A stretch of 39,702 nt of DNA from Spirochaetaceae bacterium (GTDB lineage: Bacteria > Spirochaetota > Spirochaetia > DSM-27196 > SLAA01): assembly GCA_003556605.1 (NCBI GenBank), contig PWQX01000228.1, forward strand, positions 1 through 39,702, written 5' to 3'. The notes below the pieces were generated by a model, which worked only from the letters and a program-made list of their open reading frames with translations, searched no databases and was not told where the DNA came from. Numbering within the stretch: the first letter of the stretch is position 1; the number at the start of each line of letters is the position of its first letter. Of the stretch, positions 24,059-39,697 are shown piece by piece. The position numbers and the translations under genes were made by a program.

Positions 24059-26590
24059 CTAAACGGCGCGTGCGTTGGCGGCATCGCGGGCCTCTGCGAG
24101 CTGGTCGTGGTCTATCATATCGCGTTTGGCCAGCCCGTCGATCAATGCCTCCACTACGTCGGGGTCGAACTGAGTACATTTGTTTGTGAGCAGCTCCAGC
24201 AGAGCCTCCCGCTGGCTGAGCGCCGGCCGATACAGGCGGTCTTCAGTCATAGCATGCCAGGCATCGGCAACGCTGATAATCCGCGCAACGAGCGGGATCT
24301 CTTCTCCGGCCAGCCCACGAGGATATCCGGTACCGTCGTATCGCTCTTGATGCGCCAGAATGACCTCAGCTACGGGCCGAAAATGATCGAACTTCTGCAG
24401 TAGATCGGCGCCGAGCTGAGAGTGTGTCTTCATAGTCTCCCATTCGTCTTGGGTCAGTTTGCCCCGCTTGAACAGCACCCGATCCGGAATTCCGATCTTG
24501 CCGATATCGTGCAGCAGCAACGCCTCGCGAACACTGGTATCGACTTCGATACCCAGCTCCTCGGCGATAATTGTACCGTAGGTCAACACATCGATAGCGT
24601 GCCCGGCTGTATAGCGGTCCTTGAGCTCCAGAGACTGAGAAAAGCTCAGCGATAATTCGTTCATGCGCGCCTCCAGTTCTTCGGCCCGGACCGACGCTTC
24701 GTGCAGTCGCCGAGTGGCCACGAGGTTTCTGATCCGCGCATCCAGTTCGCGGATGATTATGGGTTTTGCCAAGTAGTCGTCCGCGCCGGTTTCAAGCCCT
24801 TCGATACGCGCATCGACCTCGAACTTGGCGGTCGTCAGGATCACCGGAATAGCGGCGGTGCGCTCGGCCGATTTAATCGCCGCGAGTAAGTCATAACCAT
24901 CCATACGGGGCATCATGATATCCGAAACCACCACGTCGGGAAGCTCGTGCTCCTGCTGTTCCAACCAATCCCACCCGGCTTGCCCGTCCGCCGCCACGTG
25001 TACGTAATGGCCCAGCCGCGCGAGCATGGTAGCTACATACTCGCGGAGATCGTCGTTATCCTCCACGTACAGCACCCGCACACCATCTCCGGCGTCTCCG
25101 GCTCCACTCATCTGTGCCGAAAAGCATTTTGGTGAGGACGCCGCATCTGAGAATACCATGTTGTATACCGTCATACCGGTAGCGTCATCAAACCGCCGCG
25201 GTCCGCGCCGGCGATCCTCCCCCTCGAACGGGCGGTCGGACTGACGCCGGTCACCGCTGCGACGCTCAATATCCGCGTCCGGCTCGCGTTTCTCCAGGTC
25301 TATCGGCAATCGCAAGCTGAAAGTGCTGCCGCGCCCCACGTGGCTCGCGACCGATATGGTGCCGTGCTGCATGTCCACCGCTTCCTTGACGATCGCGAGC
25401 CCAAGACCGGTGCCTTCGTAACGTCTCGTAAGCGACCCGTCCACCTGCCGGAACCGTTCGAAGATCTTCTCTAAGTGCTCCCCTGAGATTCCTTCACCGG
25501 TGTCGGCAATCGCGATCTCTATGAACTCCTCGTCGGCCGAGAGCTGCACGGTAACGCAGCCGGCCGGTGTGAACTTGATCGCGTTCCGCACGAGGTTGGT
25601 GAGGATCCGTTCAAGCTTCTCGCGGTCCAAATATACGTTCGGGACCTCATTCGCCACATGGTAGCTGAGCTTTAGACCTTTGCGGTCCGCCACATCGCTG
25701 AATGCCGAAACCACCCCTTTCACCGCTTCGAGAACACTGGTGCGAGACAGGCGCAGGCGCATTCTACCGGCTTCGAATTTGGCGAAGTCCAACATCTGGT
25801 TGATCATATCGAGCAACCGCAGCGCATTCCGGTAGACCTGAGCAACCAGCGCAAGTTGATCCGGCTCCAACTCGCCGACATCACCCTCGTACAGGCTATA
25901 GACCGGCCCGATAATCGAAGTTAACGGGGTTCTCACCTCGTGACTGATATTCGCGAAGAACTGGGACTTCAGCGTGTCGAGCTCGGTCAAGTCCTCATTT
26001 GCACGCGCCAGGCGATAGCGCGCGACAAACTCCCGCCGTCTCATTTCCGTTGAGAGGTAAGAGCTGATGATCACCAGGATGATGGTGGATACCAAGAAGA
26101 AGTTGTTGTTCACAAACGCTCGGTAGTTGGTTACGCCACCGGTCATGAACACCGGTACGAGAAAAGAAATGTATACGATAAGGCACACGATCGCCGTGCG
26201 CTTGACGTCGAGCGGCAGCATGAAGAGAAACACGATCAAGACAAGATTGATCCCGGCGTAATACGGGCTGCTATAGCCTCCGGCGAGATGCACCATCGCG
26301 ACGATCGAGGTCGCCCAAATAACGTAGGCCGCGATACCGAGCTCGCGCGCATAACGCCGTCCGAACGATGTCTCAACGGCAAAAAAAATCGCTATGGTGG
26401 TAACTACTGCAGCCGAACGGAGGGCCAAAAAGGTTGTGAACAGGCTCGGATAGGCGACATAGTCGAGCACCGAGAAGAGCGCGATCAGCACCGCAGCCGG
26501 GATGGCCGCGAAACGCACGTCGCGCGCAGCTTTTTCTATAGATTCGTTGCGAAAGCCGTCTTCAATCGCGCGTTTATCATCCCGCTGCAT
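24059..26590 (-). CDS. Multi-spanning hybrid histidine kinase-REC-HD-GYP protein
   Basis: A membrane receptor of 843 residues. Six or so helices (about 28-180) have short loops and include a GGYSSPYYAGINLVL segment. HisKA follows with H217 (FANISHEVRTPL), then an ATPase with N-box LTNLVRNAIKF, G1 ADTGEGI and G2 GTGLGLAI. An Arg-rich linker (443-467, RRSGDRRQSDRPFEGEDRRR) joins it to a REC domain (505-625; acidic E510-D511, phosphoacceptor D557, K609). The HD-GYP domain (655-830) has H664, H694-D695 (LLHDIGKIGIPD) and H747-Q-E-R-Y-D-G-T-G-Y-P757. The expected output is phospho-controlled hydrolysis of c-di-GMP. It is last in the acyl-ligase operon, 13 bp after the ACP gene. The same operon encodes three PilZ motifs, so it probably sets the c-di-GMP level they read. 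The ligand is unknown; a lipid signal made by the operon is my inference. Confidence 0.93.
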   Translation of the reverse strand: MQRDDKRAIEDGFRNESIEKAARDVRFAAIPAAVLIALFSVLDYVAYPSLFTTFLALRSAAVVTTIAIFFAVETSFGRRYARELGIAAYVIWATSIVAMVHLAGGYSSPYYAGINLVLIVFLFMLPLDVKRTAIVCLIVYISFLVPVFMTGGVTNYRAFVNNNFFLVSTIILVIISSYLSTEMRRREFVARYRLARANEDLTELDTLKSQFFANISHEVRTPLTSIIGPVYSLYEGDVGELEPDQLALVAQVYRNALRLLDMINQMLDFAKFEAGRMRLRLSRTSVLEAVKGVVSAFSDVADRKGLKLSYHVANEVPNVYLDREKLERILTNLVRNAIKFTPAGCVTVQLSADEEFIEIAIADTGEGISGEHLEKIFERFRQVDGSLTRRYEGTGLGLAIVKEAVDMQHGTISVASHVGRGSTFSLRLPIDLEKREPDADIERRSGDRRQSDRPFEGEDRRRGPRRFDDATGMTVYNMVFSDAASSPKCFSAQMSGAGDAGDGVRVLYVEDNDDLREYVATMLARLGHYVHVAADGQAGWDWLEQQEHELPDVVVSDIMMPRMDGYDLLAAIKSAERTAAIPVILTTAKFEVDARIEGLETGADDYLAKPIIIRELDARIRNLVATRRLHEASVRAEELEARMNELSLSFSQSLELKDRYTAGHAIDVLTYGTIIAEELGIEVDTSVREALLLHDIGKIGIPDRVLFKRGKLTQDEWETMKTHSQLGADLLQKFDHFRPVAEVILAHQERYDGTGYPRGLAGEEIPLVARIISVADAWHAMTEDRLYRPALSQREALLELLTNKCTQFDPDVVEALIDGLAKRDMIDHDQLAEARDAANARAV

Positions 26591-26603: not shown

Positions 26604-26846
26604 TCAACGCTTAGTAGGCGCTTCAAAGTACTCGATAAACTCGCCGATGGTCTCCAGCTCGGCGCAGGCTTCTTCATCTACCTCAACACCAAGTTTCTGC
26701 TCGCAAGCGGCAAGCAGCTGAAGACCGAGCAAGCTGTCGATCCCCAGCTCTTCCCGAACCCGCACATCGTCATGCAGTTGCTCTACCCGCACTTTGCAGA
26801 CCTCGGAGAATACCTTACGAATCGTCTCGCGTACGTTCTCTTGCAC
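26604..26846 (-). CDS. Acyl carrier protein
   Basis: A four-helix carrier of 80 residues from GTG 26846. The phosphopantetheine site is S38 in ELGIDSLLGLQLL, with the usual acidic helix 2 surroundings. The helix 1 region ETIRKVFSEVCKVRVEQL and the C-terminal ETIGEFIEYF fit the family. It is 21 bp downstream of the AMP-ligase-fold gene and 13 bp upstream of the receptor kinase. This is a dedicated pathway carrier rather than housekeeping AcpP, which usually lies in the fab cluster. It probably receives or presents the acyl chain handled by the ligase and the LuxD-like domain. Confidence 0.93.
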   Translation of the reverse strand: MQENVRETIRKVFSEVCKVRVEQLHDDVRVREELGIDSLLGLQLLAACEQKLGVEVDEEACAELETIGEFIEYFEAPTKR

Positions 26847-26867: not shown

Positions 26868-28310
26868 TTATCGTCCTGTAAGCTCAATACCTTGGGGAAT
26901 TTTGTACCCCGCTAACCGTTCGCCGAGATACTCCCGCAGCTGGCCGGCAGTGGGTATTGCGGCTTTCGCACTGCCGCTGTCCGTTGTTACCACAGCCCGC
27001 AGTCTGTTGCCGTCGAGCGCCACCTTGACCTCATATACTCTCGGGTGACGGAGAATTGCCGTGCGCACTTCCGCGAGGTCAACCATAAGCCCATTAACCT
27101 TACGCGTAGCTTTTCGCTCGCGCGCGAAGCACAGGTGGCCGTCAGCCAGGCGAAAGACATCTCCGGTGTGAAACCAGCCTTCCGGGCTCAGCGCAGCGTC
27201 GGTCTCCGCCGGTCTACGGTAGTACCCGCGACTAACCCCGGCGCCTCGTATCAGCAGCTCGCCGTCCTCTTCTGCAAGCTTGACCTCCAGACCCGAAACC
27301 GGCGGCCCGTCCGTTCCTGAACGCGCCCGGCCGCGCAGATTCAAACTCGCCGGCGTGCACTCGGTTAGTCCGTAGCCGTTCAAGACCTCATGAGCAAGGG
27401 TGGCACGGAACCTCTGATACTGCTCGACGGTTAAACGACTGCCGCCGGTGACCAGAAGCTCGACACCTATCCCTGATGTATCGGACGGAGGAAACCGAGC
27501 CAACAGTTCAGCGATCTCGGGAACAACAGGCAAGAAATCAACCGCCTCGGCCGTAATGATACGGTGCAGACGCCGTGGATGCATGCTGTGACACAACACT
27601 GCAGTGATGTCGTACAGCAGAGGCAGAAACACACACGCAACCAGGCCGTAGATGTGTGCCATCGGCAGTACCACCAGCATCGTGCGACACCGCGCCGCAT
27701 CAATGCAGCCGGCCAAGACTTCCGCGCCGTGGCGATACTGCGCCTGTGAAACCACCGCGCCGAGCGGATAGCCGTGTCCCCGGTAGGTGAAGTTTATCGA
27801 GGCCGTGCCGTCGGCTACCGCCGTTGTACCCGCAGGCGGCGGTCCCAAGGGTGAGGCGGGCGAGGCAGGATTCGGTCGATACGAGGACCATGAATCCTCC
27901 GACCGTCCAAGTTTGTTACCGTCGCGAATGAGTACGATTCGGTCTCCGCAGTAGGGTGCAAGGTGTTCGCGATGAGCGGACTCGGTAATCAGCGCGTGCG
28001 GCTGCAAATCCCGGAAAATCGCGGATAGCTCCAGTGCGCGGTAGTCGAGCTTCAGCGGAGCAAAGACTGTGTCACGCGAGAGCAGCGCGATAATCGTAGC
28101 GGCGTAAAACGCGGAATTATGCAAAAACACGGCGACGCGCATCCCCGGCTCAACGCCGCTCTCATCGAGGCTGCACCCCACGCGATGTACGAGCCGCACG
28201 AACTCGGCGCCGGTCCAGACGCTGCGGTGCTCTTTCGCACCGTACTCCACGAAAACAGGTGCGGCCTCGCGAGCAGCCGCGCGTGCAACCAACTCACCCG
28301 CCAAGCTCAC
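26868..28310 (-). CDS. AMP-ligase-fold (acyl-CoA/ACP synthetase-like) protein with altered catalytic motifs
   Basis: An ANL-superfamily protein of 480 residues. Recognisable: the HIYG region (LPMAHIYGLVACVF), A5 (NGYGLTECTPASLN), A7 (GWFHTGDVF), the A8 hinge (ERKATRKVNGLMVDLAEV) and the start of the C-terminal subdomain (LAGYKIPQGIEL). Two things are odd. The phosphate-binding A3 loop, normally like TSGTTGxPKG, reads FTYRGHGYPLG (174-184), without the Lys. The protein ends at ELTGR, before the A10 loop that carries the adenylation lysine (GKxxR). The GTG start overlaps the fusion gene's stop (GTGA), so the two are translationally coupled, and the carrier protein follows. It may activate a fatty or hydroxy acid onto the ACP, or act as an acyl-binding or transfer partner. 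Fold certain, activity uncertain. Confidence 0.85.
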   Translation of the reverse strand: MSLAGELVARAAAREAAPVFVEYGAKEHRSVWTGAEFVRLVHRVGCSLDESGVEPGMRVAVFLHNSAFYAATIIALLSRDTVFAPLKLDYRALELSAIFRDLQPHALITESAHREHLAPYCGDRIVLIRDGNKLGRSEDSWSSYRPNPASPASPLGPPPAGTTAVADGTASINFTYRGHGYPLGAVVSQAQYRHGAEVLAGCIDAARCRTMLVVLPMAHIYGLVACVFLPLLYDITAVLCHSMHPRRLHRIITAEAVDFLPVVPEIAELLARFPPSDTSGIGVELLVTGGSRLTVEQYQRFRATLAHEVLNGYGLTECTPASLNLRGRARSGTDGPPVSGLEVKLAEEDGELLIRGAGVSRGYYRRPAETDAALSPEGWFHTGDVFRLADGHLCFARERKATRKVNGLMVDLAEVRTAILRHPRVYEVKVALDGNRLRAVVTTDSGSAKAAIPTAGQLREYLGERLAGYKIPQGIELTGR

Positions 28311-31300
28311 GGCTTCACCCCGACAACCACCACTGCCTGAGGCGGTTCACCCATCGCAGCTTCACTGTGCTCGATCACGAAGCCGGCATTCTGCAACAGC
28401 GCAGCCAGTTCCTCAGCGGTATAGAAACGAAAATATCCCTCCTCTTCGAGCTCGAATAGACCGGCGGCCTCGTTCAGCATCTCGCGAGCATGAGCGAGAT
28501 CATCCTCGGTCCCGCCGTTGCGTTCGCTGTACCGCGCGGTCAGCTCGGCAATGTATTCGGTGAAAATGGTCGAAATATCGCTGTCAGGCCGCATACTGGA
28601 AATCACGATTCGCCCGCCCGGTGCGAGCAGACGCCAAAGCTCTTCAACCGCATACTGGGGATTGAAGAGGTAGGAGATGAAAAGGCTCGCAACCACCACG
28701 TCGAACACGCCGTGCGGAAACAGCGGTTCCGCGAACACCGGGCCGCGGCCGAATCGCAGCGAGTGAAACCGCAAGTTCTCGGCCCGTAAGCTGCTGAGCT
28801 CCGGTTCTCTGAAATGCTGCGCGGGTGTGCCGGCGTTACTCTCGCTCTGCTGCGCGCCGAGAAAGTCCTCGGGATTCACGCGCCCGCGTACCACCCGCGC
28901 CGCGAGGTTGAGATCGGCGATTACTGCGCCCGCGTCGGCGCCGCAGCGATCAAGCACCTTGGAGCGCAGCATCTCATCAAGCGGCTCACCGCGCACCGCA
29001 GCCTCGAGCTCAGGCCGCGCGCAGGCAAGCAGGCAGTCAAGGTGCACGTTCGTCAAGCCCTCAACCTTTCCTCGAAGGTACTCGGGATCAACCGTCGCGT
29101 TATCGCGCATGCGGATAAACGGAACGAAACGGCTCGGTTCGAAGTCGCCAACCTCAAAGTGTAGACTACACGGTAAGCACGAGCAGTCCTCGAGCACCGC
29201 ATCCGCCTTTTCCCGCGCACTTTCAAGCGCTGCGGGAACAAGATCAAGCGCCGTAACTGCCACCGGCGGGTTTGGGCTGCGTTGCACGAGGTCGGTCAGC
29301 AATCGTTCGAGGAACAGTCCTGTTCCACAGCCGATGTCGGCAACGCGCGCCCCTGCCGTCACCGCCGCGAGCTCTACCTCGCGATCAAGAAAGCGCCGAA
29401 ACGGTCCAATATTACGATATACGTCGTAGCCCCCACCGCTATCGCCGGCCCCGATGAGATAGCGCTCCCAATAAGTGCCGGGATCAAGCACGTGCTTTTG
29501 CTCAAGCCGCTCGCGCTCACGGGTTACCAGCTCCAGCAGTTCCTCCCGATTCGGGTGCACCGCTTCAACCGTTTCCCGGTGAAGACCGGCAAAAATGCGT
29601 GTCGCAATCAGGGAGAAGGTGGCAATCGCGTCATCACTTGTGCGTAGGTTATGACCGGCGGGAATGCAGATTACCTCGCGCTGCGCCGGGGCTGCAATGC
29701 TCATAATATCGACCACGTCATCGGCGGTTACCCATTTGTCGTGCTCCCCGTAGATCCACAACACCGGCACGCGAACATCCGCCATATCGGCGCGCGCGTC
29801 CGAAACAGTGGCGTACCCATGCTCCACCAAGTCCTCGGCAATCACGTCAAGGTTCACCAAATGACCCAAGAGACCACAGATACCCATGGGGACACCGAGC
29901 TTGAAGTTACCAACCGGGTCTACACCGCCGAGGGTGTTTACAAGCGCCGGTTGCCCGGCGGCAACCCCCATCACACTCACCCAACCCACGATGCGCTCGG
30001 CGTTCCGCGGATCCAAGGCAACCTTGCGACCCTCTAGCGCCGACATGCTGAAGGTGACCGGCACTACCCCGAGTGCTTGGAACAGATCAGTGCTACCGGC
30101 AAACTCTATGGTGGTCTGAAGATCACGTAAGCCCTGCGAAATGCTGAAGCGAAGCATATCGCAGCCGCGTTCCTCCTCGTTCACGCTCGAGTAGCTTTCA
30201 CCGGGCCGGTCGATGCCGTCGTATCGAATGGTGACCAGGTCTCGACCGTAGCGGGCAAACGTCGCGGTGAGTACCGCCGCGAGCGGCGCCAGCGCCTCCT
30301 TCTTCTTACCAAACGCCGGCGGAAGAATCACTACCGGCGCCGAGCGTCCGAATCCGGTAGCGTTGATAAGCGCTTTGATCGGCCGACCTTGGCGGTCGTA
30401 GTACGTCACCAGACGGGCAACCGCGGCGTCGCCCAACGGAGCGCTCGCCCCCGCCTGCTTCAAGAGCTGCCATTCTCTTTCACTTACGCTGCGAATCATT
30501 GGATTGCCGCGTTCAACACCGGACTCTATTCCGATGATGGCTTGCTTGCCCTCCGGGCCGGCCTGTATTGTTGCGTGCCGGAGCTCGCCCCTCCGTCTTC
30601 CGGCACCGGTGTCGAAGCGCAGCCCCGCACCGATCTCCAGAAACTCGTGCACGCCTTCGGCTACGTGAAACACGCACCGCAAGCCTCTTGTGCTGCTGTC
30701 CAGCAACCGGCCGATGAACTGCCGCCCGGGAAGCCGGTCAAGCTCAACGCTTACCCGCGTTCCGCTACCGGCCGGACGATCGCGATGAGCGCCGCGTTTC
30801 TCAGAGCGGTAGAGCTGTTCCGGCATAACCAACTCAACGGTATCCTCCCTCACCGCCGAGACCACCGTCTTGAAAAAGAAGCTTCCGCCGTCGACACTCA
30901 AGCCGCCGTACAGGCGAACCCCCTGATCAAGCGGGTCACGCTCGGAAAAGGCGTCACGCGGAATCATCAACGCAGGCCGCGCCGAAAGCAACTCGGTATG
31001 CACCACCCGCTGGTCGCCCTCCAACATGAGTTGTAGGCAACGGCCGAGTACGCAGGCGCTGCGCAGCAAGGCAGCGGCGTCCTCCGTTGCTACCGAGTAG
31101 TCGGCCTCATACTCGGCACGATATACTATGCGCTCGAATATCGCGCGTAGAGCGGCTCCGGAGCTCTGCGCTACCACGAAGTTGCGCAGTCGCGCCGCGT
31201 CTATTTCATTGACGCGGGATATGTTGAGGCCGGCGGTCGAATACTCCGCGAATCGTTCGCTGTGCACGTGCACCACCTGCGCGCCCACCACAATTGAGCG

Positions 31301-31813
31301 CTGGTCGCCCGGGAGCCGGAACCGTAGGTCCAGCGTCTCGTCAACTCGCAGCGTTCCCGCGAACCGGAGCTGCAGACCCTCGGTGGAGATGTTATCGATA
31401 CTCCGGACCCGTAGATCGCCCCGCCGGCATTCTACCGGGGTAATACTACAGTCCACCCGAGGCAGTTTGCGTGCATCGAAGGCGCCCGCATGCTCGCCGT
31501 GCCGCACGAACGCCGCTCGGATAAACTCAGTGACGAACTCGCGCTCCCGGTCGGTTCGGAAATTGAACTCCAGCGCGGTCTGATTACCCTCTCCTTGCCC
31601 GGCATCGCCGGTACGGCGAACCGCGCGCACCGGTATCTGAAGCTGCTGTTCACTTCCGGGAAGGTTGAAGCTAACCGACTGCGGCTTGGCCTTCTTCGGA
31701 AGCTCAATCCGCATTCCCGACCTGCTGATATCAATGCTGCGCGCTCGCAGTTGCCCATTTTCTGTCGCGCATTCTACCCAACCTCGGTGTCGAACTCGTG
31801 AATGCCGGCGCAT
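28307..31813 (-). CDS. Triple-PilZ / LuxD-like acyltransferase / SAM methyltransferase fusion
   Basis: A cytoplasmic protein of 1168 residues from ATG 31813 (GGGGGA nine nt upstream). An in-frame TTG at 31864 coincides with the -35 box and is rejected as start. There are three PilZ motif pairs: RRHSR (2-6) with DISRSG (28-33), RKLPR (115-119) with NISTEG (141-146), RGAHR (340-344) with DSSTRG (372-377). About 490-745 is an alpha/beta hydrolase resembling LuxD, the acyl transferase of bacterial luminescence: TFSMS with S589, EHDKWV with D692 and GHNL with H721 form the triad. About 780-1168 is a class I methyltransferase (DIGCGTG, 826-832; ALDLVP; FDVVVASLF; LLAPGGRIVISS) interrupted by a Cys-containing insert. 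It heads the four-gene operon. Inferred role: c-di-GMP-controlled release or transfer of an acyl group coupled to methylation. Confidence 0.87.
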   Translation of the reverse strand: MRRHSRVRHRGWVECATENGQLRARSIDISRSGMRIELPKKAKPQSVSFNLPGSEQQLQIPVRAVRRTGDAGQGEGNQTALEFNFRTDREREFVTEFIRAAFVRHGEHAGAFDARKLPRVDCSITPVECRRGDLRVRSIDNISTEGLQLRFAGTLRVDETLDLRFRLPGDQRSIVVGAQVVHVHSERFAEYSTAGLNISRVNEIDAARLRNFVVAQSSGAALRAIFERIVYRAEYEADYSVATEDAAALLRSACVLGRCLQLMLEGDQRVVHTELLSARPALMIPRDAFSERDPLDQGVRLYGGLSVDGGSFFFKTVVSAVREDTVELVMPEQLYRSEKRGAHRDRPAGSGTRVSVELDRLPGRQFIGRLLDSSTRGLRCVFHVAEGVHEFLEIGAGLRFDTGAGRRRGELRHATIQAGPEGKQAIIGIESGVERGNPMIRSVSEREWQLLKQAGASAPLGDAAVARLVTYYDRQGRPIKALINATGFGRSAPVVILPPAFGKKKEALAPLAAVLTATFARYGRDLVTIRYDGIDRPGESYSSVNEEERGCDMLRFSISQGLRDLQTTIEFAGSTDLFQALGVVPVTFSMSALEGRKVALDPRNAERIVGWVSVMGVAAGQPALVNTLGGVDPVGNFKLGVPMGICGLLGHLVNLDVIAEDLVEHGYATVSDARADMADVRVPVLWIYGEHDKWVTADDVVDIMSIAAPAQREVICIPAGHNLRTSDDAIATFSLIATRIFAGLHRETVEAVHPNREELLELVTRERERLEQKHVLDPGTYWERYLIGAGDSGGGYDVYRNIGPFRRFLDREVELAAVTAGARVADIGCGTGLFLERLLTDLVQRSPNPPVAVTALDLVPAALESAREKADAVLEDCSCLPCSLHFEVGDFEPSRFVPFIRMRDNATVDPEYLRGKVEGLTNVHLDCLLACARPELEAAVRGEPLDEMLRSKVLDRCGADAGAVIADLNLAARVVRGRVNPEDFLGAQQSESNAGTPAQHFREPELSSLRAENLRFHSLRFGRGPVFAEPLFPHGVFDVVVASLFISYLFNPQYAVEELWRLLAPGGRIVISSMRPDSDISTIFTEYIAELTARYSERNGGTEDDLAHAREMLNEAAGLFELEEEGYFRFYTAEELAALLQNAGFVIEHSEAAMGEPPQAVVVVGVKP

Positions 31814-31836: not shown

Positions 31837-31864
31837 ATTGTATGCTTTCGACCGCTTGGGTCAA
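31837..31864 (-). promoter_or_regulatory. Promoter of the PilZ/LuxD-like/AMP-ligase/ACP/HD-GYP operon
   Basis: Read leftward: TTGACC (31864-31859), a 16-bp spacer and TACAAT (31842-31837). Initiation at about 31830 gives a short leader containing GGGGGA before the ATG at 31813. Both hexamers and the spacing equal those at 5278-5305. Confidence 0.65.
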
Positions 31865-32729: not shown

Positions 32730-34001
32730 CTACTGCGGTAGCACAATCGAGACCGTTGTTCCTTCGGCCGCAGTGCTCGCAACCTCGATTCTGCCGTTGT
32801 GCAGCAGGACGATACGCCGGGCAATCGTGAGACCTAATCCCGAGCCTTCAGTGTTGCGCGCGTACTCACCGCGATACAGCCGCTCGAATAGATGATCGAG
32901 CTCTGCAGGCGGAATCGGCGGGCCTTCGTTCGTCACCGCTAGCTGCAGCCCCCTTTCCGGCAGATTCGTGACCAGCAGGCGTACCCGCCCGCCGGTCGGC
33001 GCATGCCGGACGGCATTGCTCACGACGTTCGAGACCGCGCGATACAAGAGCGCTTCATCGGCACTAATCGCTTCCGTTCGCAGCTCAGGCTCCCAGCGGA
33101 TCCCTTTCTTTGCGATCTCGTGGCCGAAACGCTGCCTGAGCGTCTGCACAAAACCCTCGGCCGAGAACGTGGTTACGTCTATCCGCGCGTCCGGCTGCTC
33201 GAGCTGCATAAGCTCCTCGAGATCGCCAATCAGGCGCTCCACCCGGCCGAGCTCGGAGAGCGTCGTCTTAACCGTGCCGGCGTCGGCGCGATATACGCCG
33301 TCGACGATGGCCTCCAGTTGAGCGCGAATCGACGCAATTGGTGTGCGCAGGTCGTGGGTAACGTCCTGCGCCCATTGGGCGCGCAGGCGGCGTTCGTCGG
33401 ACAGACGCACCGCGAGCGTATTCGCCGCACGTGCGATTCGCACCACTTCCTCGGCACCCTCTTCCGGGATCGGCGCCGCCGGCGCACCGTACGCGATGGA
33501 GTCTATGCCTGCAGCGACCCGCGCCGCAGGGCTCGTGAGCGAGCGCGCGAAGCCCCAGGCCATCACCACCGCGGCACCGAACGCAGCCAGCGCGCCCGCG
33601 GCGGCAGCACGGACCAACGAGTGAGCCAGGGCGCGATTGGCCGCGTCGTTGCGAAAGGCGGTTGTACCAACCGAGAAGTATCCCAGCAGGGTGCCGTTTT
33701 CGTGCACCGGAATACGATCCTCATCACCTTCCCGCCGGCGGCCGACACCACGATTGGAGGCAACCAAAGTACCGCGGCGGTCATAAACAAACACCGGAAC
33801 ATCCTGCGGCACCGTTTGTTCAGCCTCGTCGGCGCCTCTGAGAATCCGGCGTGCCGATTCTTCGATCATGAGCACACGACGGGCGCTCCAAGTTGAAAGT
33901 GAATGGTTATAACCGGCGATCAGGGCACCGGCGAGCACCACCAGCAGCACGGCGAAACTGGCGAGGAACGCAATGAAGGTACGGCGAAACAGGCTACGCA
34001 T
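32730..34001 (-). CDS. OmpR/EnvZ-class sensor histidine kinase
   Basis: A membrane kinase of 423 residues from ATG 34001, which overlaps the regulator's TAG by 8 bp with GGGAA upstream; a TTG 42 bases earlier is less likely. TM1 is at about 8-30 and TM2 at about 133-152. Between them lies a periplasmic loop of about 100 residues (VYDRRGTLVASNRGVG, then VHENGTLLGYFSVG), short and typical of envelope-stress sensors. HAMP follows, then HisKA with H216 (QDVTHDLRTPIAS) and an ATPase with N-box VVSNAVRHAP and G2 GSGLGLTIARRI. It is coupled to the regulator and faces an efflux operon, so it likely senses a toxic peptide, antibiotic or envelope damage. The Arg-rich, acidic loop GRRREGDEDR could bind metal or a cationic peptide; that is a guess. 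Confidence 0.93.
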   Translation of the reverse strand: MRSLFRRTFIAFLASFAVLLVVLAGALIAGYNHSLSTWSARRVLMIEESARRILRGADEAEQTVPQDVPVFVYDRRGTLVASNRGVGRRREGDEDRIPVHENGTLLGYFSVGTTAFRNDAANRALAHSLVRAAAAGALAAFGAAVVMAWGFARSLTSPAARVAAGIDSIAYGAPAAPIPEEGAEEVVRIARAANTLAVRLSDERRLRAQWAQDVTHDLRTPIASIRAQLEAIVDGVYRADAGTVKTTLSELGRVERLIGDLEELMQLEQPDARIDVTTFSAEGFVQTLRQRFGHEIAKKGIRWEPELRTEAISADEALLYRAVSNVVSNAVRHAPTGGRVRLLVTNLPERGLQLAVTNEGPPIPPAELDHLFERLYRGEYARNTEGSGLGLTIARRIVLLHNGRIEVASTAAEGTTVSIVLPQ

Positions 34002-34713
34002 TGGTCTTTTCCCGCTCTTCGCGACCAACGAACCGGTAGCCAAAGCCCCGCACAGTATCTATCCAGGGGACCTTGCCGAGCTTGGTACGGATGTTCTTAA
34101 TGTGCGTATCGATCGTGCGCTCGGACCCCTCTGCGAGATAATCGAGACAGACCCCGAGCAAGCGCTCACGCGAAACGACGATTGCGGCGTTCTCGGAAAG
34201 ATGATTGAGTATCTTCCACTCTGCAGCGGTCAGCGTGACCTCGGCACCGTTGTGCCGGCAGATGTGACCGGCTTCGTACAACTCAAGCTCATGCTCGGCA
34301 CCGTTGTGCTCAAGCCTCCATCGCCGCAGAGCGGCACTGTCGGTGTGTGTTGCCTGCGACCGGCGCAACACCGCCTGCACACGCAGCATCAGCTCTTTGT
34401 TTGAGAAAGGCTTCACCACGTAGTCGTCTCCGCCCACCTCGAACCCCGTGATTCGGTCGGACTCGGAAATACGCGCGGTCAAGAAGATGATCGGGGCGGA
34501 AGAAAACACGCGCAGCGTTCTAGCGAACAGGAACCCATCCCCGTCGGGCAGCATTACGTCGAGGATAATTACATCGGGGGGCTGCATTCGCACCGCTTCC
34601 TTGAGCCCGGAAAGCCGCGCAAACGCCACAACGTCATGCTGCTCGAGCCGCAAATACGATACAATCGTCTCGCGGAGACCTTCGTTGTCCTCTACCACAA
34701 ACACGCGCGCCAT
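33994..34713 (-). CDS. OmpR/PhoB-family response regulator
   Basis: A cytoplasmic transcription factor of 239 residues from ATG 34713, preceded by GGAGGAG; a GTG ten codons earlier overlaps that box and is rejected. REC domain: acidic E8-D9, phosphoacceptor D52 in IILDVMLPDGDG, a T/S in FLTARIS and K in VVKPFSNKEL. The winged helix is at about 130-235: VTLTAAEWKILNHLSENA, then the recognition helix near ERTIDTHIKNIRTKLG, then TVRGFGYRFV. It forms an overlapping pair with the kinase. Likely targets are its own operon, the divergent TolC/MFP/ABC genes and the periplasmic protein. All of these have TGTGAAG-type direct repeats with 11-bp phasing nearby. Confidence 0.94.
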   Translation of the reverse strand: MARVFVVEDNEGLRETIVSYLRLEQHDVVAFARLSGLKEAVRMQPPDVIILDVMLPDGDGFLFARTLRVFSSAPIIFLTARISESDRITGFEVGGDDYVVKPFSNKELMLRVQAVLRRSQATHTDSAALRRWRLEHNGAEHELELYEAGHICRHNGAEVTLTAAEWKILNHLSENAAIVVSRERLLGVCLDYLAEGSERTIDTHIKNIRTKLGKVPWIDTVRGFGYRFVGREEREKTNA

Positions 34714-34736
34714 TACTCCTCCAACTATACTACGAC

Positions 34737-34798
34737 TCTTCACATAGTGTCGTGCCGGTGTGGAAACGGTAGGGAGCGCGTGTGAAGATCATGTGAAG
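34737..34798. promoter_or_regulatory. Candidate response-regulator sites upstream of the regulator-kinase operon
   Basis: Plus-strand TGTGAAG occurs at 34781-34787 and 34792-34798 (11-bp phasing), and the same heptamer lies on the minus strand at 34743-34737, close to the regulator start. This spacing fits OmpR-family dimers and suggests autoregulation. Confidence 0.5.
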
Positions 34799-34981: not shown

Positions 34982-36439
34982 ATGAAGACGCCGACGTTCT
35001 ACAGAAGCCGCGCAAGACGCGCGCTCCAACTGGCCTCAGCGCTAATCCTCGTCGGCTTGGGACCCAGCGTTCCGGCCGAGGCGCCGGGCAACTTAAGCGC
35101 CGTACTGAAGACCGCCGCAACCGGCGCCGATGTTGTCGCCGCGCGGGCTGCATACGAGACAGCCCGGGCCGAGGCGGTGGCGCTGGGATACCGTGGTGAT
35201 CTTTCGTTGTCGCTGATCCCCTCTTGGGAGACGTCGTGGGTGCCCGATGACGACCGTGATCCGTATCACGAGCTCAGCACCACCTTTGAAGCTACAATAC
35301 CCACCGGCCTCAACGCTGCCGAGCGATTGCGAATGGAGCAAGCCCTGAGCCGAACCGCCGGCGCCGAAGCCGAGCTTCGAGAGGCGCTGCTTGACACCGT
35401 AGTATCGCTGCATTCCGCCTACGTCGCCGCCTATCTCAGACACGCCGAGCTCGCGGTGCTCGAGCACGAGCGAAAAGCCGTCCGCATCCGCATAAACGCC
35501 AAAGAAGCGCGCTACACCAGCGGAGAAGTCTCGCTGATCGATCTGCTCGCGATCCGCGAGGAGCTGCGCGAGGCAGAACAGGCCGTGGAAGACGGAGTAA
35601 TGGAGGCCGAGCTCGCCCTGCTCGAGCTAATGCTGCAAAGCGGTACCGAGATTCCGCGGCGTTGGGAACCGGGTGCGCTGTTGGAAGCGCTTCCGCCGCC
35701 TGCCTCGCCGACCGAGGACCTCGCCGGCCTGACCGTTCCGGAGCTCGAAAGTGCAATCGCCAGGATAGGCGTCACACACCCCCGTATTGTCAAGCAGGCG
35801 GCGGTTCTCGACGCAGCCGAAGCCGGAACTCGTGTGCCGCGCGACCCGCTCTTGTCATCCATCCGGGTGGCGTACTCGGGTGAGGACGGGCATTCGGGGG
35901 CCGTCTCATACTCGTTTCGAGCGCCTTCGGTTTCACTGGCATACACGCCGCCGGCTTTCGACATCGGAAGCGAACCGGAATCCGGATCTAACCGAAACCG
36001 TTCGGATGAGAACGCCATCAGCTTCTCCGCGGTGTTTTCGCTGAGCCTAGGGCGCGAACGCACGCACGCGGAAGATGTCGCGCGTACCCGCGCCGAATAC
36101 GAAGCCGCTCGCCTCGATGCACTGCAGCGTGCGGTCGAGGCGGAGGTCCATTCACGGCACCGCCGAATATCGGCTGCCGAGGCCAAGCTTGAGCTGGCTC
36201 GCCAAGCCGAGGAACGTGCCGAGGCGTCACACGCGGCGGCCCTAGCACGAGAGAACATAGGCGCTGCCGAGCCCGGCGACCTCGAAGCCGCTGCGGCTGC
36301 CCTCGCGCGGGCGCGCTTTGCGCGTACCGAGGCCGAGATATCCTTGGCCGGCGAAAGACTGAGATACGTTGCCGCAGCGCATACGCCGGAAGCGCTCCCT
36401 GAAACGCTGCGCGACACACTATTCGGAGGTTCCCTATGA
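34982..36439 (+). CDS. TolC-like outer membrane efflux protein
   Basis: A protein of 485 residues with an N-terminal export signal (about 8-33). It shows the two outer-membrane-efflux repeats: long amphipathic Ala/Glu/Arg-rich helices (AAYLRHAELAVLEHERKAVR, INAKEARYTSGEVSLIDLLA in the first; AAEAKLELARQAEERAEASH in the second), with strand segments between (TTFEATIPTGL, ISFSAVFSLSLG). The GEVSLIDLLAIREEL stretch is a common TolC signature. It likely forms a trimeric tunnel through the outer membrane for the downstream adaptor and ABC genes, to which it is joined by a 4-bp overlap (ATGA). The ATG lacks a Shine-Dalgarno sequence; a TTGACA at 34957-34962 is too close to act as its -35. Confidence 0.92.
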   Translation: MKTPTFYRSRARRALQLASALILVGLGPSVPAEAPGNLSAVLKTAATGADVVAARAAYETARAEAVALGYRGDLSLSLIPSWETSWVPDDDRDPYHELSTTFEATIPTGLNAAERLRMEQALSRTAGAEAELREALLDTVVSLHSAYVAAYLRHAELAVLEHERKAVRIRINAKEARYTSGEVSLIDLLAIREELREAEQAVEDGVMEAELALLELMLQSGTEIPRRWEPGALLEALPPPASPTEDLAGLTVPELESAIARIGVTHPRIVKQAAVLDAAEAGTRVPRDPLLSSIRVAYSGEDGHSGAVSYSFRAPSVSLAYTPPAFDIGSEPESGSNRNRSDENAISFSAVFSLSLGRERTHAEDVARTRAEYEAARLDALQRAVEAEVHSRHRRISAAEAKLELARQAEERAEASHAAALARENIGAAEPGDLEAAAAALARARFARTEAEISLAGERLRYVAAAHTPEALPETLRDTLFGGSL

Positions 36440-37698
36440 ACACAAATACACGAACCGGAAAGCCGACCCGACGGAGAAACCGCAAACGCTTCGGCATGTT
36501 GCTGGCCGCAGCGCTTCTCTCAGCGGGCGGGTGGTTCGCATACCACCAGCCGTTCGCGGTCGAGGGCCCGGAGTCGGATGAGAAGAAGATTGAGACTGCC
36601 GAAGCCGTTGAAGGCGCCGTGGCAGTGACCGTAGAGAGTCCGGCTGTTGCCGAGCCCTACCGCGTGCGCACGTTGCGGGCCGCCGTGGGCGGTACAGTTG
36701 CCTGGGCCGCACAAGAAGGCGATGAAGTCGCTGCCGGCCAACCGCTTGTGCGGTTCGCCGCAGCGGAGTTCGAACGCAGCGTAGCGCTCGCGCGAATTAG
36801 CCTCACCGACGCCGAGATCAAACGTGACCGCGCGAGCGCCGACCTCGCCAAAGCCGAGCGAGTGCTGCGCGAGCGTGAGGCGCTACTGGTGACCGGCGCG
36901 GTGTCTCGCGAGCAGGTGCTGAGCGCGCGCGAGCAGGCGACAGAAGCCCAATATGCGCTCCGTTCGGCCGAGCTGGCCGTAGAGCGCGCTCGCATTGAGC
37001 TTGAGACCGCCGAAGACGAGCTCGACGGCCAGATACAGCGCGCACCTTTTGACGGCACCGTGTTGAGGTTAGAGATGAACGAGGGCGACCGGGTCGGACA
37101 GAACTCAACACTGCTCAGTTTTGGGGACCTCTCGCGCCTGCGGTTTCGCGCTGAGATCGACGAGTACGACATCGGGCGGGTAGCGGTGGGTCTGCCGGTG
37201 AGCATTCGTAGCGACCTGCTCGGTGACGACAATCTGCGCGCTCGGGTTGAGAGCATCAGTCCGGAGGCTGAGATTGTAAACAACATCCCGGTTTTTCGCG
37301 TCACTGCCACCGCAGATAACCCTGAGGGGCGACTGAAACCCGGAATGAGTACCGATCTCGTGGTGCAGCTTGCGCGCGACAGCGGCATTGTGATCCCGGC
37401 CGGCGCGGTATCCACGGTGCGCACCCGCAGCTACGTTGAAGTCGTTAAAGCCGACGAAACCGAGACGCGCCGTGTAGAGACCGGCGCTAACGACGGCGCC
37501 AATATCGTAGTCCTTGACGGGCTCCAGGCCGGCGAGCTCGTGAAACTGCCGGACGGCGCCGGCGTTCTGCCCGGCGCGGCGCCGGCAGAGGCATCCCAGC
37601 AGCCGGAGGCTATTCCTATGTCGGTTCCCGGTAGCCCGGCCGGCGGAGGCACCGGCGGAGGCGCAGGCTCCGGCGGCGGAGGCGGAGGCACGCGATGA
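36436..37698 (+). CDS. Membrane fusion (periplasmic adaptor) protein, MacA/HlyD type
   Basis: A protein of 420 residues. A positively charged N-terminus and one membrane anchor (about 20-37) precede a lipoyl half (TVAWAAQEGDEVAAGQPLVRF), an alpha-hairpin (about 110-190, highly charged coiled coil) and the second lipoyl half (IQRAPFDGTVLRLEMNEGD). Beta-barrel (IGRVAVGLPVSIRSDL) and membrane-proximal domains follow. The last 40 residues are Pro/Ala and then almost pure Gly (GGGTGGGAGSGGGGGG), an unusual flexible tail that MacA proteins usually lack. It starts inside the TolC-like stop and ends inside the ATPase start, each by 4 bp, so the whole pump is translationally coupled. Confidence 0.93.
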   Translation: MNTNTRTGKPTRRRNRKRFGMLLAAALLSAGGWFAYHQPFAVEGPESDEKKIETAEAVEGAVAVTVESPAVAEPYRVRTLRAAVGGTVAWAAQEGDEVAAGQPLVRFAAAEFERSVALARISLTDAEIKRDRASADLAKAERVLREREALLVTGAVSREQVLSAREQATEAQYALRSAELAVERARIELETAEDELDGQIQRAPFDGTVLRLEMNEGDRVGQNSTLLSFGDLSRLRFRAEIDEYDIGRVAVGLPVSIRSDLLGDDNLRARVESISPEAEIVNNIPVFRVTATADNPEGRLKPGMSTDLVVQLARDSGIVIPAGAVSTVRTRSYVEVVKADETETRRVETGANDGANIVVLDGLQAGELVKLPDGAGVLPGAAPAEASQQPEAIPMSVPGSPAGGGTGGGAGSGGGGGGTR

Positions 37699-38462
37699 TC
37701 GCGCTCAACGAGATTTACAAGCAGTACGACATGGGTCCGACGATCGTTACCGCGCTCGGCGGCGTCTCATTACACATAGAGGCCGGCGAGTATATCGCGA
37801 TCATGGGTCCGAGTGGGTCGGGCAAGTCGACCTTGATGAACATCATAGGCTGCCTTGATACGCCCGACAGCGGGAGCTATTTCCTCGCGGGCGAAGAAGT
37901 GAGCGACCTGACTCGCGACGAGCTCTCCGAGGTACGCAATCGCCATGTGGGGTTCGTATTCCAAACGTTCAACGTGCTCGCACGCGCTACGGCACTGGAA
38001 AACGTAGAGCTGCCGCTGGTTTATCGTGGAACCGGCGCCCGCAGACGACGGAGCATGGCCGCCGAGATGCTCAGCCGCGTAGGTCTTGATGACCGCATGG
38101 ATCATCTGCCGACCGAGCTATCCGGCGGGCAGCGACAGCGGGTGGCGATAGCGCGCGCACTGGTTGGAAACCCGTCGGTCATCCTGGCAGACGAACCCAC
38201 CGGCGCGCTCGACACCACAACCGGAGAAGAGATCATGGCGCTGTTCGAGGAGCTGAACGCCGAGGGGGTTACCGTGGTGCTGGTTACGCACGACTTTGAT
38301 CTTGCCATGCGCGCCCGGCGCATGGTGCGCCTGCTTGACGGGTTGGTAGATGGGGGCCGGTCCGACGCTGAGCGCTGTGCACAAGCCCAAGACTTGGGAC
38401 ACGCCGCGAAACAGCTCCGCGCCGAGCATACGGCATACGCCGACCTGGAGGCACCGCGATGA
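37695..38462 (+). CDS. ABC transporter ATPase, MacB/LolD class
   Basis: A cytoplasmic ATPase of 255 residues. Walker A GPSGSGKST (about 37-45), Q-loop VFQTFNVL, signature LSGGQRQRVAIARAL, Walker B VILADEPTGALD and H-loop VLVTHD are all intact. The family-specific NIIGCLDTPDSG after Walker A fits the MacB/LolD/FtsE group. A C-terminal extension of about 35 residues (GGRSDAERCAQAQDLGHAAK onward) is beyond the usual end. It overlaps the adaptor and the permease by 4 bp each. It provides energy for mechanotransmission-type export of a periplasmic substrate rather than classical transmembrane pumping. Confidence 0.95.
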   Translation: MIALNEIYKQYDMGPTIVTALGGVSLHIEAGEYIAIMGPSGSGKSTLMNIIGCLDTPDSGSYFLAGEEVSDLTRDELSEVRNRHVGFVFQTFNVLARATALENVELPLVYRGTGARRRRSMAAEMLSRVGLDDRMDHLPTELSGGQRQRVAIARALVGNPSVILADEPTGALDTTTGEEIMALFEELNAEGVTVVLVTHDFDLAMRARRMVRLLDGLVDGGRSDAERCAQAQDLGHAAKQLRAEHTAYADLEAPR

Positions 38463-39697
38463 AAGCCGTAAGGCAACTTATTATGATGTGGGAAAACGGC
38501 GCTATGTCGGTCCGCAGTATTCTCTCCAACCGCGGGCGTTCGTTTCTCACAGCGTTAGGCGTCATCATCGGCGTGGCCTCGGTCATTACACTCACCGCGC
38601 TCGGACAAGGCGCGCGGCTCTCGGTAGAAGACCGTCTCAGCACGCTTGGGGCGAACCTGTTGATCGTGTACTCCGGTGAGCCGCGCGGGACATCGCTAGT
38701 CCGCCCGCGCACCACCAACATTAGACCGACCCTCACCGCCGATGACCTCGCGCTGATAGACTCGCTACCCGAGGACCTCGTCGTGATGACCGCGCGCGAG
38801 TCGTCGCTCAACGGTTGGCTCAAGTTCGAGAACCGCAACGCCGCCGCCACGGTAATCGGCACCGATCCGGTTTACCCCGAGATAAGGAACTTCCGCCCGG
38901 TGTATGGTGCCTTCTTTAGCGAGCACGATATGGACAACCGGCGCAACGTCGTCGCGATCGGCGCGCAGACCTACCGCGAGCTGTTCCCCGACGGGCGTGA
39001 TCCGCTCGGGGCGATGATCCGAATCAACGGCTTCCCGTTCCGCGTCATCGGGGTCATGGAGGAAAAGGGCTCACCCTCGCAGGATGCGTCGGTCTTAATT
39101 CCTCTCAGCACGTATCGCCGTTCGCTCTCGGGCGAGGACCGCTACGCGATGATCAACATACAGGCTGCCGCTCCCGAGATAATGTACGAGCTACAAGCTA
39201 AGATTGAAGAGGAGCTGCTGCGCCTGCGGCGGCTGCCGTCGATGGACTTAGCCGACTTCTACATCGCCAACCAGATGGATCTCATCGGCACCGTCACCGA
39301 CGTCGCCGACACCTTCACGTTGCTACTCGGCGGCATCGCCGCGATCAGCTTGCTCGTAGGGGGCATCGGCATCATGAACATCATGCTGGTCTCGGTGACC
39401 GAGCGAACGCGCGAAATCGGTATCCGCATGGCGCTCGGCGCCAAAGCAACACATTTGATGACGCAGTTCTTGACCGAGGCGGTGATTCTCTCGGCCGGAG
39501 GTGGACTCATCGGAGTTGGCCTCGGGTACGCGCTTTCTTGGGGCATACAACGCTTCGGGGGGCTCGTGACGATGGTCACGCCGGAGTCGGTGCTGATCGC
39601 ATTCTCGTTTGCACTGCTGACCGGGCTGTTCTTCGGCGGCTACCCAGCCTACCGCGCCTCACGCCTAGACCCGATTGAAGCGCTGCGCCATGAATAA
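38459..39697 (+). CDS. ABC permease, MacB/FtsX family
   Basis: An inner-membrane permease of 412 residues, complete, ending 5 bases before the window edge. TM1 (about 25-47, FLTALGVIIGVASVITLTAL) is followed by a large periplasmic MacB_PCD domain (about 50-285) and three C-terminal helices. The family signature SLLVGGIGIMNIMLVSVTERTREIGIRMALGA is visible around 295-330 (quoted here only in part by its GGIGIMNIM and TREIGIR elements), and the end reads YRASRLDPIEALRHE. Split from its ATPase, unlike Escherichia coli MacB. It works with the TolC-like channel and adaptor as a MacAB-TolC-type exporter of peptides, lipids or antibiotics. Regulation is likely by the divergent two-component system. 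Confidence 0.94.
   Translation: MKAVRQLIMMWENGAMSVRSILSNRGRSFLTALGVIIGVASVITLTALGQGARLSVEDRLSTLGANLLIVYSGEPRGTSLVRPRTTNIRPTLTADDLALIDSLPEDLVVMTARESSLNGWLKFENRNAAATVIGTDPVYPEIRNFRPVYGAFFSEHDMDNRRNVVAIGAQTYRELFPDGRDPLGAMIRINGFPFRVIGVMEEKGSPSQDASVLIPLSTYRRSLSGEDRYAMINIQAAAPEIMYELQAKIEEELLRLRRLPSMDLADFYIANQMDLIGTVTDVADTFTLLLGGIAAISLLVGGIGIMNIMLVSVTERTREIGIRMALGAKATHLMTQFLTEAVILSAGGGLIGVGLGYALSWGIQRFGGLVTMVTPESVLIAFSFALLTGLFFGGYPAYRASRLDPIEALRHE

Follow-up and report, generated by a model that had tools for sequence, protein, structure and literature searches.

We report here a gene encoding a single polypeptide of 1168 amino acids, in which PilZ and YcgR-N modules are joined to an α/β-hydrolase of the LuxD type and to a class I S-adenosylmethionine (SAM)-dependent methyltransferase (28307..31813, minus strand). 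It lies in a stretch of 39,702 nucleotides, hereafter the window, which is contig PWQX01000228.1 of the Spirochaetaceae bacterium assembly GCA_003556605.1 and contig 14 of this draft genome of 3.88 Mb. An earlier note had drawn attention to the polypeptide without giving its strand; the open reading frame is placed on the minus strand. It starts with an ATG at 31813, preceded at about 9 nucleotides by a GGGGGA stretch, and the homologues share this start residue; an in-frame TTG lies further upstream at 31864. Residue numbers below are counted from the ATG at 31813, and the domain coordinates are all on the minus strand.

Domain architecture of the fusion protein

Pfam searches and structural matches of an AlphaFold2 model together give the domain order PilZ, PilZ, YcgR-N, PilZ, hydrolase and methyltransferase; the Pfam hits comprise PilZ twice, several methyltransferase models and one weak acyl-transferase match. 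The full-length model was built from 28 rows (mean predicted local distance difference test score (pLDDT) 78.6, predicted template-modelling score (pTM) 0.64). Since its Z-ranked list, outside which further fold families may still match, is filled by hydrolase matches, the PilZ part was predicted separately (mean pLDDT 80.2, pTM 0.46). The fusion of PilZ, hydrolase and methyltransferase is thus confirmed. The earlier note had counted five domains: three PilZ domains, the hydrolase and the methyltransferase all stand, and the count rises to six with a YcgR-N-like domain that it had overlooked (residues 229-339; 30797..31129), placed before the third PilZ domain. Conservation was read from a 28-row alignment (A2), comprising the window protein and its homologues from 27 of the 32 loci found in a scan of named genomes, which share 33-63% identity with the window protein. 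The five loci left out are L041, with a split or shifted frame; L055, L057 and L059, truncated at contig edges; and L060, where a match in Streptomyces covers no more than 57 residues. The further alignments A3 to A8 are subsets of 14, 13, 23, 26, 21 and 14 rows, respectively.

The PilZ fold is recognized by Pfam in two stretches (E-value 5.6e-19) and by matches to solved PilZ structures at residues 1-108, 110-219 and 345-435, so that the N-terminal 480 or so residues, which had been proposed to be PilZ folds, are indeed predicted to contain them. PilZ1 (residues 1-109; 31487..31813) is matched by Pfam PilZ and has the motifs R2xxxR6 and D28xSxxG33, and its predicted model matches 9fnn_A with Z 11.0 and 5y6g with Z 11.3. 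PilZ2 (residues 110-222; 31148..31486), the second Pfam PilZ stretch and a genome match, has R115xxxR119 and N141xSxxG146, and its model matches 4xrn_C with Z 13.1 (root-mean-square deviation (rmsd) 2.2, 103 residues aligned). PilZ3 (residues 340-435; 30509..30796) has R340xxxR344 and D372xSxxG377, and its model matches 4hg6_A over residues 345-435 with Z 11.4. The YcgR-N-like domain directly precedes it: the model matches 5y6h with Z 11.8 (102 residues aligned), a profile search aligns the region with positions 245-425 of the PP4397 profile, and structures of YcgR and PP4397 are matched over residues 227-435, and with them MrkH over about 230-435, spanning YcgR-N and PilZ3.

The claim that all three PilZ copies keep both RxxxR and (D/N)xSxxG holds in the window protein and, with few departures, across the family. 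Both arginines are retained in every row that can be read, namely 24/24 rows with letters for PilZ1, 27/27 for PilZ2 and 28/28 for PilZ3, in which the serine and glycine are likewise present in 28/28. The serine and glycine of the second motif are retained in each PilZ bar a single replacement of S143 by T, and the first position of the second motif in PilZ2 varies between N (21 rows), D (four) and Q (two). This conservation is seen in the most divergent region of the protein (22-48% identity, as against 44-80% for the hydrolase): 11 of the 12 R/R/S/G motif positions fall within the 27 fully conserved positions among the 472 of the PilZ part (hypergeometric 2.6e-14). When the fusion protein was shuffled 20,000 times, three motif pairs arose in nine cases and more than three in none. 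From the motifs and the predicted folds we infer that the three PilZ modules are likely to bind cyclic di-GMP (c-di-GMP).

The LuxD-like α/β-hydrolase (residues 464-773; 29495..30424) has S589, D692 and H721 as its putative catalytic residues. The first Foldseek match of the full-length model is 1tht, the LuxD thioesterase of Vibrio harveyi (E-value 7.9e-12, target template-modelling score 0.80), and VIA-align 2 gives 1tht_B with Z 29.1 (rmsd 2.9, 277 residues aligned), the next entry having Z 25.5. The same structure is the sole Protein Data Bank profile match of the hydrolase (E-value 2.6e-4); by counting of positions in this alignment S589 falls on residue 114 and D692 on residue 211 of 1tht, which we take to be LuxD catalytic residues, with H721 lying outside the alignment. 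All three are invariant (28/28 rows), and together with the top-ranking structural match this confirms the earlier assignment of a LuxD-like hydrolase that keeps the three putative catalytic positions. There are differences from the myristoyl-ACP thioesterase LuxD: the hydrolase here is fused to PilZ and methyltransferase domains, it falls below the cut-off of the NCBIfam LuxD equivalog (18.1 bits against 420), and neither a LuxC-type reductase nor the LuxC/LuxE partnership of the lux operon was identified among the operon genes. No plasmid record matched the hydrolase.

The methyltransferase (residues 776-1168; 28310..29488) has a GCGTG loop at residues 828-832. It carries an insert of about 130 residues, at approximately 876-1010, and the Pfam methyltransferase models are split between residues 824-875 and 1010-1150 (Methyltransf_23, E-value 5.2e-13). 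Residues 776-1168 match NodS (3ofk_B) with Z 21.5 over 188 aligned residues, and the GxGxG motif and the Rossmann fold of class I SAM methyltransferases are both present. The loop glycines are found in 28/28 rows, and D857 is an aspartate in 27 and a glutamate in one, in line with the earlier description of an intact SAM loop.

A conserved family in spirochaetes and Desulfobacteraceae

The fusion is a conserved family. It is present in 18 of 61 related genomes; two further genomes among the 20 matched (G047 and G058) have a methyltransferase match only (E-value about 7e-4) and were not counted as carriers. In the scan of named genomes 31 of the 32 loci proved to be genuine relatives, belonging to Spirochaetes, Desulfobacteraceae and a single record named ‘Bacterium’, and the closest named relatives of the window are spirochaete metagenome assemblies. 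Strong matches were found in 6 of 392 genomes of a phylum sample, all in frames of 1173-1204 amino acids, and in 6 of 291 in the class sample of a Desulfobacula genome, in frames of 1035-1090 amino acids. Neither sample yielded a separately encoded hydrolase or methyltransferase of the fusion family at thresholds of 1e-15 and 1e-6; as these are strict, remote unfused relatives may exist. Nine genomes searched with the methyltransferase gave one strong match each, and one of them a second, weak match (E-value 4.8e-7).

The same domain order in open frames in the 18 relatives, in the named-genome scan and in two Desulfobacterota genomes that carry the gene on very long contigs leads us to reject chance or an assembly chimera. 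A defence system and a phage origin were likewise rejected: PADLOC gave only partial methyltransferase-like and ATPase-like matches, and PHROGs only generic methyltransferase and esterase matches.

At three loci (L043, L085 and L086) the fusion frame lacks the first PilZ domain. At the Desulfobacula locus L041 (9986-13527) the first PilZ lies in a separate frame of 147 codons overlapping the rest, due to a frameshift or a split gene. Two remote relatives, L083 (25% identity) and L084 (23%), keep S589, D692, H721, the methyltransferase glycines and R340, R344, S374 and G377. The tree places the proteins of Desulfobacteraceae together with the spirochaete rows L035, L037, L044 and L088 (support 90/95, not starred), a grouping that hints at transfer.

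The operon and its membrane kinase

The fusion gene heads an operon, with genes downstream in the order ANL ligase-like protein, acyl carrier protein (ACP), usually a B12-binding radical-SAM protein, and histidine kinase. Across 37 loci, each gene was scored only where the downstream sequence was long enough, 8 of the 37 ending too near the 3' end of the fusion to count, and loci in one clade are not independent. So counted, the ligase-like gene is present in 27/29, the ACP in 23/25, the radical-SAM gene in 17/24 and the kinase in 23/23 loci. In the window the ANL-family protein of 480 amino acids (26868..28310, minus strand; AMP-binding E-value 6.8e-49) overlaps the stop of the fusion by 4 nucleotides; it is followed by an ACP of 80 amino acids with a GIDSLL motif (26604..26846, minus strand; PP-binding E-value 2.2e-13) and a membrane kinase of 843 amino acids (24059..26590, minus strand). 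For the radical-SAM proteins, families of hopanoid and ladderane lipids are among the best NCBIfam matches, none of which comes near the cut-off (HpnJ, E-value 6.8e-35; TIGR04072, E-value 1.4e-19). This conserved operon of four to five products points to acyl-ACP chemistry together with c-di-GMP turnover. The two remote relatives lack the ligase-like, ACP and radical-SAM genes, and a kinase still adjoins the fusion: the L083 kinase includes HD-GYP, and at L084 there are a hybrid kinase and a receiver (REC)-kinase without HD. One clade adds GGDEF cyclases, with one or two genes for cNMP-binding GGDEF diguanylate cyclases (cNMP-GGDEF) lying divergently upstream in L047, L048, L050, L058 and L059; a gene for an HU-like DNA-binding protein is situated between the GGDEF genes and the fusion in L048 and its relatives.

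The kinase protein has a hydrophobic N-terminus, a kinase core, a receiver and an HD-GYP domain, with Pfam matches to HisKA, HATPase_c, Response_reg and HD_5; Hpt was not found in the window protein by Pfam. H217, D557, H694, D695 and the GYP motif are present in 14/14 rows of alignment A3. Among solved structures the output domain is closest in sequence to 5z7c, a 3'3'-cGAMP-specific phosphodiesterase, and to 4mcw, a metal-dependent phosphohydrolase and presumably an HD-GYP protein. The sensor domain of the kinase is present as a single copy in each of 18 genomes among the 61 relatives (E-value below 1e-60), and 16 of these are also among the 18 fusion carriers (hypergeometric 1e-10 before kinship correction); the two genomes with a fusion and no sensor (G034 and G038) are drafts that are 75-76% complete. 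In the two genomes with a sensor and no fusion (G011 and G044) the kinase is divergent from a protein of 573-594 amino acids with a C-terminal methyltransferase (L091 3090-4808, L092 1-1782), which gave no hydrolase match and has a PilZ-like motif (RQYLR, ISAHG) that was read by eye and is not scored as PilZ by Pfam.

Upstream of the fusion, the window encodes another histidine kinase together with a regulator of the OmpR type (32730-34743, minus strand), followed by an export operon of outer-membrane efflux, HlyD, ABC and MacB components (34982-39697, plus strand); a similar arrangement of kinase/regulator and export genes is found in L029.

A candidate acyl-tailoring circuit and its alternatives

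That one operon encodes an ACP, a LuxD-like thioesterase fold and a methyltransferase suggests release and methylation of an acyl chain carried on the ACP. We propose, giving it about an even chance, that the fusion is a c-di-GMP-gated acyl-tailoring enzyme, which would release and methylate an acyl group borne by the ACP of its operon, within a circuit comparable to Rpf/DSF (diffusible signal factor) or Phc. Herein c-di-GMP would be bound by the PilZ, PilZ and YcgR-N/PilZ modules, and this binding may alter their packing against the hydrolase and methyltransferase domains or against partners. Going by its fold and the presence of the ACP, the hydrolase would take the acyl group from the operon ACP, after modification of the group by the radical-SAM protein where that is present, and the methyltransferase would methylate, plausibly, the released acid. 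The product, which may be a diffusible signal, or the resulting membrane state would be read by the membrane histidine kinase, whose receiver would in turn control the HD-GYP domain, a putative c-di-GMP phosphodiesterase, to which it is fused. The receptor-enzyme and the c-di-GMP-degrading sensor would thus form one feedback loop, in which the second messenger acts directly on the synthase.

Several known systems share parts of this arrangement. The Rpf cluster of Xanthomonas combines a ligase-family gene (RpfB) with a sensor kinase (RpfC) and a REC-HD-GYP protein (RpfG) (PMC3749722); similarly, the acyl ligase-family gene here is beside a membrane hybrid kinase with a REC-HD-GYP output, fused in the window and encoded by separate genes in L085. 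In the Desulfobacterota loci L085 and L086 (the latter by model match) the separate REC-HD-GYP gene follows the kinase, thereby resembling rpfC/rpfG. The differences are that the fusion operon uses an ACP, a LuxD-like hydrolase and a methyltransferase, that the spirochaete kinase and HD-GYP are fused, and that c-di-GMP receptors are built into the enzyme. The Phc system of Ralstonia likewise has a SAM methyltransferase next to a sensor kinase. There the methyl ester of a 3-hydroxy fatty acid is made by PhcB and read by PhcS, with PhcR as a further component. The abstracts consulted mention no PilZ or HD-GYP for Phc; no PhcB-named family is among the NCBIfam hits, and nothing corresponding to its LysR regulator PhcA was seen among the window operon genes. 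In Pseudomonas aeruginosa c-di-GMP-bound MapZ inhibits the methyltransferase CheR1 (PMC6370697), which, as in the fusion, places a SAM methyltransferase under a PilZ protein; MapZ and CheR1 are two proteins with a protein substrate, whereas the modules here are covalently joined and encoded in an acyl-ACP operon. The YcgR-N plus PilZ module is shared with YcgR-like proteins surveyed with a focus on Spirochaetota, in which tandem PilZ-like domains are reported to number up to three (PMC11800159); hence the triple PilZ alone is not new. To that module the fusion adds the hydrolase and methyltransferase, two words absent from the main text of PMC11800159. The earlier note had not recognized the architecture, and searches of open-access full texts showed no description of a PilZ-hydrolase-methyltransferase fusion, an absence that is provisional.

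Several observations weigh against the proposed circuit. ANL enzymes usually have the P-loop SGTTGxPKG and a canonical C-terminal catalytic-lysine segment; here the P-loop is altered to TYRGxG followed by xxxG, the C-terminus comes directly after YKIP, and the lysine segment is missing in 13/13 homologues examined, so that canonical acyl activation by the ligase-like protein is doubtful. The window has no radical-SAM gene between ligase and kinase, and no crotonase (RpfF-like) gene was seen among its operon genes scanned. In the kinase, the HD-GYP metal-site motif HHE reads HQE in 11/14 rows including the window, for which reason phosphodiesterase activity is uncertain, and no known ligand sensor matches the sensor region convincingly. 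Lastly, the sensor is found in two genomes (G011 and G044) that lack the fusion.

Among the alternatives, the most probable is that a lipid of the membrane or of storage, and not a signal, is what the operon tailors, with c-di-GMP adjusting lipid methylation and acyl release in a lifestyle switch and the kinase sensing the membrane state. The hydrophobic kinase N-terminus and the hopanoid/ladderane-type matches of the radical-SAM proteins, distant as they are, would fit it; an acyl group freed by a LuxD-like thioesterase is poorly placed to enter a membrane lipid, the radical-SAM gene is missing in 7/24 loci including the window, and the kinase gene in all 23 long-enough loci is a better fit to a dedicated signal. 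We consider the lipid reading rather unlikely. Less probable still is a specialized metabolite, such as an antibiotic or pigment, whose production is gated by c-di-GMP with the kinase as an ordinary cluster regulator: the ACP, ANL protein, radical-SAM protein, methyltransferase and thioesterase are typical tailoring parts, but the cluster is small, neither the scanned genes of the window operon nor the conserved annotated neighbors showed a ketosynthase or a condensation domain, and the kinase gene follows in every long-enough locus. That the fusion acts on proteins, its PilZ domains directing the acylation or methylation of a partner from, for instance, motility or secretion, appears very improbable: PilZ domains often work by protein contact, as described for YcgR and MapZ (PMC12564702, PMC6370697), but the operon ACP and ligase-like protein point to small acyl chemistry and the annotated neighbors include no conserved motility or secretion gene.

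Returning to the acyl-tailoring circuit, its wider form is that spirochaetes and Desulfobacteraceae have a new, self-contained class of lipid-signal circuit, with a synthase bearing up to three c-di-GMP receptors, a membrane receptor in the form of a kinase-phosphodiesterase fusion, and mutual control of cell-to-cell signal and second messenger in one operon; this we advance only tentatively. Few c-di-GMP receptors act directly on small-molecule enzymes, cellulose synthase being the classic case. Its activation by c-di-GMP is via a PilZ domain (PMC12564702). What stands out here is a conserved fusion of three such receptors to domains for acyl release and methylation, beside a sensor kinase with an output domain of the c-di-GMP-degrading type. 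Such a fusion would allow the direct control of acyl chemistry by a second messenger, and perhaps that of a quorum signal, to be studied on a single purified protein, and it also suggests a fatty-acid-type signalling system in spirochaetes.

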